Positions 3,834-52,053 of a stretch of 64,000 nucleotides of DNA are shown in pieces. The notes beneath the pieces were generated by a model. The model was not told where the DNA came from. It ran no database searches and worked only from the letters and a program-made list of their open reading frames with translations. Both the position numbers and the translations under genes were made by a program. How positions within the stretch are numbered: position 1 is the first letter of the stretch; each line of letters begins with the position of its first letter. Source of the DNA: Pseudomonadota bacterium (GTDB lineage: Bacteria; Pseudomonadota; Alphaproteobacteria; Rhizobiales; Beijerinckiaceae); the NCBI GenBank assembly GCA_021781815.1, contig JAJXWB010000002.1, forward strand, positions 164,964 to 228,963. The letters are read 5' to 3'.

Positions 3834-4226
3834 TCAGTCGCCGCGATCTGGCGGCGGCACAATGTCGAGCGCGCGCAATTCCGCGCTGCTGAACGTCCGC
3901 GACCTCGTGAGAAAGCGCCACTCCGTGCCATTCTCCAGCGAGAACATGCCGCCCCGGCCCGGAACGACGTCGATCGTCAACTGGGTATGGCGCCAGACCC
4001 CGAATTGCTGCGCGCTGATGTAGACGGGCGCGCCGGCGATCTCGCCCAGCTTCACGTCATGGTCGCCGACGATGAAATCGGTCTGTTGGTAGCACATGGG
4101 CGAGGAGCCGTCGCAGCATCCGCCGGACTGATGGAAAAGGACGGGGCCGTACTGCTGCTGCAACCGGAAGATCAGGTCGAGCGCCGCGGGGGTCGCCGTG
4201 ACGCGCCGGGGCTTGTCTGCGCCCAT
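3834..4226 (-). CDS. DUF779 protein, aldehyde dehydrogenase partner
   Basis: A 130-residue cytoplasmic protein of the DUF779 family. The signature HQSGGCCDGSSPMC lies near residues 33-46, and Cys/His residues suggest metal or redox chemistry. It is encoded about 100 bases after the aldehyde dehydrogenase on the same strand, an association that recurs in many proteobacteria and actinobacteria. Its biochemical role is not known. A protective or accessory role for the dehydrogenase is only a guess from context. It ends 16 bases from the convergent ABC ATPase gene. Confidence 0.85.
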   Translation of the reverse strand: MGADKPRRVTATPAALDLIFRLQQQYGPVLFHQSGGCCDGSSPMCYQQTDFIVGDHDVKLGEIAGAPVYISAQQFGVWRHTQLTIDVVPGRGGMFSLENGTEWRFLTRSRTFSSAELRALDIVPPPDRGD

Positions 4227-5844: not shown

Positions 5845-5937
5845 CGATTCCTCCTGAGTGCGCGTCTTTGCTGCGCGCGTCGGACATTCGCCGCATCGGG
5901 CGCCGCTGTCAGGATGGAGGCTGGATTTTCGGGAGCG

Positions 5938-5963
5938 GATGTGTCGCAAGGTTGCGACACATC
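5938..5963. promoter_or_regulatory. long perfect inverted repeat, likely operator of the adjacent AcoR-like regulator
   Basis: Two perfect 12-base arms (GATGTGTCGCAA and its complement) flank a GG spacer. It lies in the 133-base gap between the regulator stop and the aldehyde dehydrogenase start, about 94 bases before the latter. A Fis-type HTH protein binds as a dimer to such sites, so it is most simply the activator site for the dehydrogenase/DUF779 operon. It could also form an RNA hairpin, but no T-run follows. Confidence 0.7.
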
Positions 5964-5977
5964 GGGACCAGGACGCT

Positions 5978-6967
5978 TCAGGTGGCGCGATCGAGGCCGA
6001 AGCGGGTGAGTTTGCGATGCATGGTCGCCCGGCTGACGCCGAGCAGGCGGGCGGCGGCCGAGACATTGCCGCGCGCTCGCGACAGCGCGCGTCGCACCGC
6101 GCCACGCTCGGCCGCAATCAGATCCTCCGCCGGCGCCCCCGCCGCGCCGTCCAGCAAATCCGAGGCGGGGAGGGGCCGCGCCAGACGTTCGTCGGTCAAT
6201 CCATACGCCAGCCGCGCCGCACGGTTGGCGCCAGCGACGAGATCCTCGCGATCGACCGCCAGAAGCCCGCCGCCGCCGCCGACGACGATGCGCGCATCGC
6301 GGTACGCTTCGCGGAAATACGCGGTCTCGATCCTTTGCGCGGCGTCCATGGTCGCGACGGAAACCAGTTTCAGCATGGCGGGAGTGAGGTCCGAGCGCCC
6401 GGTTGACACGTCCAACGCTGCGCAGAGGCGACCTTGTGCGTCCCAGATCGGCGCGGCCGTGCAACTCAGCGCGATGTTGCGCGTCAGGAAATGCTGGTCG
6501 CGGTGTATGGTCAGCGCCCGCCCTTCCGTCAGGCAGGCGCCGACGCCATTGGTGCCCTCGCTCGCCTCGCTCCAGACCATACCGGTCCATAGTCCGAGTC
6601 TGCGGAAGTCCGCATCGTCGCCCGCCACGCCGCGCCGGTCGAGCGGGATGCCGTCGCGGTCGGTCAACAGGACGCAACAGCCCGCCTCGCCGACAGACTG
6701 GAACAGGCGATCGAGCGTTGTGTGCGCGAGACGGACCAGCAATTCCATGCGCTGGAACGCGGTGTCGAACTCATGCTGGTCGAGCCGGCGCGGCGGTCGC
6801 CGATCCTCAGGGTTGAGGCCGTATTTCGTCGCCGACCGCGACCACGACGCGACGATCGCCGATTGCGCGGCGGACGCCCCGTCTCTTAGCGCCGCGTAGA
6901 CGCGCTCGGCGTGATGCGTCCTGCAATTTTCGCCCATCCGGACACCTGGTTGAATCCCCTCTGGCAT
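5978..6967 (-). CDS. AcoR-like GAF/HTH_8 transcription regulator lacking the AAA+ domain
   Basis: The ATG at 6967 has AAGGA six bases upstream; another ATG at 6973 is too close to it. In the 329-residue protein, residues about 60-200 resemble the GAF sensor of AcoR-type regulators ([33 protein letters not shown]). A PAS-like stretch follows ([23 protein letters not shown]). The C-terminus is a Fis-like HTH ([21 protein letters not shown]). The central sigma-54 AAA+ domain with GAFTGA is absent, so it should act with sigma-70 or as a repressor. It probably senses a metabolite for the downstream aldehyde dehydrogenase. Confidence 0.82.
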
Positions 6968-7117
6968 CCGCATTCCTTATCCGGGGCCGCGCGCGCGAAT
7001 GGAGCGCAGGCGACGCGATACGACGCGGTTGATCGCATCGTCCGCGCGCCACGAACAAAATCAATTGGACTTACGGTCAGGCCGGTCCGGGCGTCTTGGG
7101 GACGAAGCCCGGTTCCG

Positions 7118-31990: not shown

Positions 31991-32015
31991 GCCCGCGCGA
32001 AAAATTCGCGCGGGC
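31991..32015. terminator. perfect hairpin between rpsA and sppA
   Basis: 11-bp arms GCCCGCGCGAA/TTCGCGCGGGC with a 3-base loop, 26 bases after the rpsA stop and 20 bases before sppA. No T-run follows the stem on the minus strand. It may partly terminate, or stabilise the rpsA mRNA end so that sppA is expressed less than rpsA. Confidence 0.5.
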
Positions 32016-52004: not shown

Positions 52005-52053
52005 GGCAATGGGCAGTCGGCATTCGACGATCGACTGCCGACTGCCTAATGCC
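52005..52053. repeat. long imperfect inverted repeat between fadB-like gene and nitrilase gene
   Basis: Two 18-base arms (GGCAATGGGCAGTCGGCA and TGCCGACTGCCTAATGCC) pair at 16 of 18 positions around a 13-base loop. It lies five bases after the FadB-type stop. It resembles the GCAGTCGGCA-rich intergenic palindromes seen in many alphaproteobacteria. It may act as a terminator or be a dispersed repeat. Confidence 0.6.

Follow-up and report, generated by a model that had tools for sequence, protein, structure and literature searches.

A conserved palindrome upstream of exaC as the predicted operator of an AAA+-less AcoR-like regulator

What role might a 26-bp perfect palindrome play in the gap between the gene of an AcoR-like regulator and exaC, which encodes an acetaldehyde dehydrogenase? 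The window, a 64-kb stretch of DNA from a Beijerinckiaceae bacterium, carries the sequence GATGTGTCGCAA-GG-TTGCGACACATC at 5938–5963, and its 12-bp arms are exact reverse complements around the GG centre, as the original prediction had described. Among the perfect inverted repeats of the window with spacers of 0–20 bp, it is the longest. The accompanying claim that such arms far exceed chance expectation proved too strong, as arms of at least 12 bp are expected analytically 0.011 times with a spacer of 2 bp and 0.13 times with spacers of 0–10 bp, and the mean over 12 first-order simulations was 0.08. The length of the palindrome by itself is only moderately surprising and leaves chance possible; the case therefore stands on conservation. 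The window's longest repeats after this one include an inverted repeat at 52012–52046 with 11-bp arms and a 13-bp spacer. A hairpin at 31991–32015, GCCCGCGCGAA-AAA-TTCGCGCGGGC, has 11-bp arms followed by a short T run (GGTTTTG) and is possibly a terminator.

The genes flanking the palindrome define its context (Table 1). The Pfam domains of the window regulator are GAF and HTH_8 only, with no PAS domain, and GAFTGA and Walker A motifs are absent from the AAA+-less regulators of 38 relatives, which bears out the expectation that this protein lacks an AAA+ domain. The regulator gene, exaC and the DUF779 gene, which is probably co-transcribed with exaC, all lie on the minus strand. The palindrome had been placed between the regulator and its presumed target; it does fall in the 133-bp gap separating them, but since the two genes run in the same direction rather than divergently, it comes after the regulator gene and before exaC in the direction of transcription.

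Table 1. Coordinates of the palindrome, neighbouring genes and putative promoter elements in the window
Feature	Position	Strand	Basis
DUF779 protein, 130 aa, downstream of exaC	3834..4226	-	PF05610
exaC, acetaldehyde dehydrogenase, 505 aa	4327..5844	-	NF050026, 941.1 bits vs cutoff 900
GAATGT, weak -10-like hexamer, 17-bp spacing	5884..5889	-	putative; nATCCT in most relatives
CTGACA, -35-like hexamer, starts 29 bp after core	5907..5912	-	
Perfect palindrome, 26 bp, 12-bp arms and GG centre	5938..5963	.	
Conserved 18-bp core TGTCKCA-N4-TGMGACA (TGT-N12-ACA), predicted operator	5942..5959	.	
AcoR-like regulator, 331 aa, GAF and HTH_8 (Fis type), no AAA+	5978..6973	-	Pfam

Conservation was assessed in a first set of 14 relatives and then extended to exaC loci across the order. 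The gap contains TGTCKCA-N4-TGMGACA in all 14 relatives, as an exact match in 13 and with a single mismatch in one, whereas the originally proposed core, TGTCGCAA-N2-TTGCGACA, occurs in none of them and has to be replaced by this motif. Absence of the palindrome from orthologous gaps between the regulator and the dehydrogenase gene had been named as the observation that would count against it; instead, the site is present at every one of the 38 sampled exaC loci that adjoin a homologous AAA+-less regulator (41–100% identity), exactly at 34 and with one mismatch at four. Across the 35 loci that are distinct, the seven-base half-sites hardly change; variation falls in the 4-bp centre and in the bulk of the outer flanks and of the 29 bp downstream, and the inner AA/TT and outer GATG/CATC of the window palindrome are unconserved in the relatives. 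The variable half-site position (G or T in one arm, C or A in the other) changes independently in each arm, yielding non-pairing combinations in 10 of the 35 distinct loci, which fits a protein-binding site rather than an RNA stem. One locus (L052), in which the regulator gene is divergent, still has a site with one mismatch.

The distribution of the site across genomes follows that of the regulator. Among 249 genomes compared from the order, those with the regulator have the exact site in 29 of 35 cases and those lacking the regulator in 13 of 214 (Fisher p 4.5e-22, uncorrected for relatedness, the counts not being phylogenetically independent), and a reversed control pattern occurred six times in the same comparison. 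Four of the six regulator-bearing genomes lacking an exact site (G093, G095, G186 and G247) have a one-mismatch site beside exaC. Three genomes of a single genus (G064 and G159, the remaining two of those six, and G245) encode the regulator with no site within two mismatches beside it; G245 has exact sites elsewhere in its genome, none of which adjoins the regulator. The site is missing where the neighbour of exaC is a full-length AAA+ regulator or where no regulator adjoins it; the exception is G045, in which the site is kept at exaC even though the regulator lies on a separate contig. Together, the 38 loci and the genome-wide co-occurrence support, by comparison, the proposal that the palindrome is the predicted binding site of the regulator. 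L140 and G187 have an additional site preceding the regulator, which suggests autoregulation there; the window has no such second site. Exact matches away from the regulator are partly due to chance, as illustrated by those inside a xylulokinase-like ORF (L131) and a 168-aa ORF (L115). The assembly containing the window holds a single exact copy of the motif, and a second match with two mismatches (L002) was set aside as probably fortuitous.

The core conforms to the 18-bp TGT-N12-ACA outline of HTH_8 (Fis-type) operators, an outline shared by the E. coli TyrR box. The palindrome of CrtJ is likewise TGT-N12-ACA (PMC5362033), and TGT and ACA 10–12 bp apart are common among the sites of Fis-type enhancer-binding proteins (PMC6615313). 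CrtJ/PpsR share with the present system an HTH_8 regulator working without sigma54, but they carry PAS rather than GAF domains, act mainly as repressors, and bind sites that overlap the -35 and -10 elements (PMC5362033), whereas the site described here lies upstream of a -35-like hexamer. The Clostridiales Fis-type sites (AorR, AdhR and others) resemble it in spacing and in their alcohol- and aldehyde-related targets, including aor, but their regulators are sigma54-dependent and their core bases distinct; for clostridial AcoR, too, a distinct motif has been reported (PMC6615313). The AcoR/DhaR-type sigma54 enhancer-binding proteins have in common with our regulator a GAF sensor, an HTH_8 domain and alcohol, aldehyde or acetoin targets, and those of this order also share the half-site TGTCGCA. 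They differ in that the present system has no AAA+ domain, no -24/-12 element and only a single site near a sigma70-like promoter.

A sigma54 -24/-12 element at -30 to -150 was found at 0/38 AAA+-less regulator–exaC loci versus 20 of the 22 exaC loci flanked by a full-length regulator in divergent orientation (GAFTGA and/or Walker A), and none of these 22 has the site at one mismatch or fewer. Because both the AAA+ domain and the -24/-12 element are lacking, the regulator is not a sigma54 activator, although it is AcoR-like in its GAF and HTH domains, and sigma54 control of exaC was rejected here on the count of 0/38. A tree of 51 regulators, in which long branches were flagged, separates the AAA+-less from the AAA+ proteins cleanly (100/99). 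The layout of the sites also differs: several exaC loci beside AAA+ regulators have clustered TGTCGCA-like half-sites about 200–260 bp upstream, in contrast to the single site that accompanies the AAA+-less regulator. At four AAA+ regulator loci (L034, L066, L056 and L064), at least three TGTCGCA/TGTTGCA half-sites cluster upstream of exaC with 2–3 bp spacers.

The exaC gap appears instead to contain a sigma70-type promoter at a fixed distance from the site in most of the order. The TGAC of CTGACA begins 29–30 bp past the site in 30 of the 35 distinct loci, and when the best -35/-10 pair was chosen in each gap with its position unconstrained, the offset was 28–29 bp in 31 of the 35, with 17–18 bp spacing and a -10 that is mostly nATCCT. 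The centre of the site is thus placed about 38 bp upstream of the -35 and at about -74 from the putative exaC transcription start, a position typical of class-I activators. In the window, the -10 matches TATAAT at two of six positions; a strict promoter scan returned no promoter, leaving GAATGT unscored. The register is lost in several more distant loci (L055, L065, L067, L069, L177, L179 and L181) and is weaker in loci of other orders.

Given these observations, we consider it likely, with a probability of roughly 85%, that the palindrome serves as operator for the neighbouring GAF–HTH_8 regulator, which would bind as a dimer and activate exaC–DUF779 through sigma70. The Fis-type HTH of each subunit is predicted to contact one of the 7-bp half-sites, TGTCKCA and TGMGACA, and the GAF domain may sense an inducer, probably an aldehyde, an alcohol or acetoin. 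At about -74, the inducer-bound regulator could then recruit sigma70 RNA polymerase in a class-I-like manner and switch on exaC–DUF779.

The same operator and regulator could also work in the opposite sense, the regulator repressing exaC until an inducer releases it. The sign of regulation is unreadable from sequence, and a precedent for repression exists in CrtJ, which combines an HTH_8 domain with a TGT-N12-ACA site; nevertheless, its sites cover the promoter elements, whereas the single site here precedes the -35-like hexamer in a fixed register, and the weak -10 resembles that of activated promoters. Repression is therefore considered unlikely, and activation is the probable function of the operator. 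A more distant possibility is that the site serves another regulator, such as a full-length AcoR encoded elsewhere, together with sigma54. One genome (G033) does encode a full-length AAA+ AcoR with a site of identical type, TGTCGCAAAGCTGCGACA, before acoABC, together with a sigma54-like promoter, TGGCAC-N5-ATGC. This explanation is nonetheless very unlikely, as -24/-12 elements are confined to the loci beside AAA+ regulators in the comparison above and the presence of the site follows the AAA+-less regulator genome by genome.

Alternatively, the palindrome might function at the RNA level, terminating transcription of the regulator gene or forming a leader structure, given that an 11-bp stem forms when the region is folded. 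Its folding is, however, just mildly better than that of shuffled sequences (z -1.68), and neither a T tract nor a terminator was found at the palindrome. Moreover, the non-pairing combinations at 10 of the 35 distinct loci, G/A or T/C, show that the symmetry is not maintained by compensation, and the site is retained where the regulator gene is divergent (L052) or unlinked (G045), so that a role in RNA is scarcely credible.

Comparison thus supports a Fis-type HTH operator that would serve a branch of AcoR-like regulators lacking AAA+ and linked to sigma70. In the open-access literature, we found no paper describing an AAA+-less regulator–exaC operator system, and for this widespread and apparently uncharacterized branch the present analysis proposes an operator, a promoter arrangement and a set of targets. 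Within the order, exaC is also controlled by AAA+ relatives, which offers a clean comparison of a joint change in regulator and promoter type. More tentatively, and at slightly less than even odds, the AAA+-less clade may have lost, or never had, the AAA+ motor while keeping the TGTCGCA half-site, as control of the same aldehyde-oxidation genes moved from sigma54 to sigma70 promoters through the fixing of one dimer site at a distance of about 38 bp upstream from the -35. If true, this would represent a natural conversion of an enhancer-binding protein into a simple activator.

The targets of this regulator type extend beyond the aldehyde dehydrogenase and DUF779 genes originally proposed, which hold for exaC–DUF779 but do not exhaust the set. 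At two loci (L144:1148-4728 and L145:5521-9098), an AAA+-less regulator and the site precede genes for a ferredoxin (4Fe-4S) and an aldehyde:ferredoxin oxidoreductase, an aldehyde-oxidizing enzyme non-homologous to the exaC product. Two further loci (L150:251-2849 and L152:339-2943) have a regulator of the same clade and the site before CoxG-like and 2Fe-2S molybdenum-hydroxylase-type genes, the CoxG label being a reading of the sequence and not a Pfam assignment. At L151:167-1057, the site precedes an apparently truncated exaC, the frame of which enters unrelated, transposase-like sequence. Finally, a genome without the AAA+-less regulator has an exact motif (L148:1876-1893) about 220 bp ahead of a gene for a PQQ alcohol dehydrogenase, and the intervening sequence contains a sigma54-like TGGCAC-N5-CTGC.
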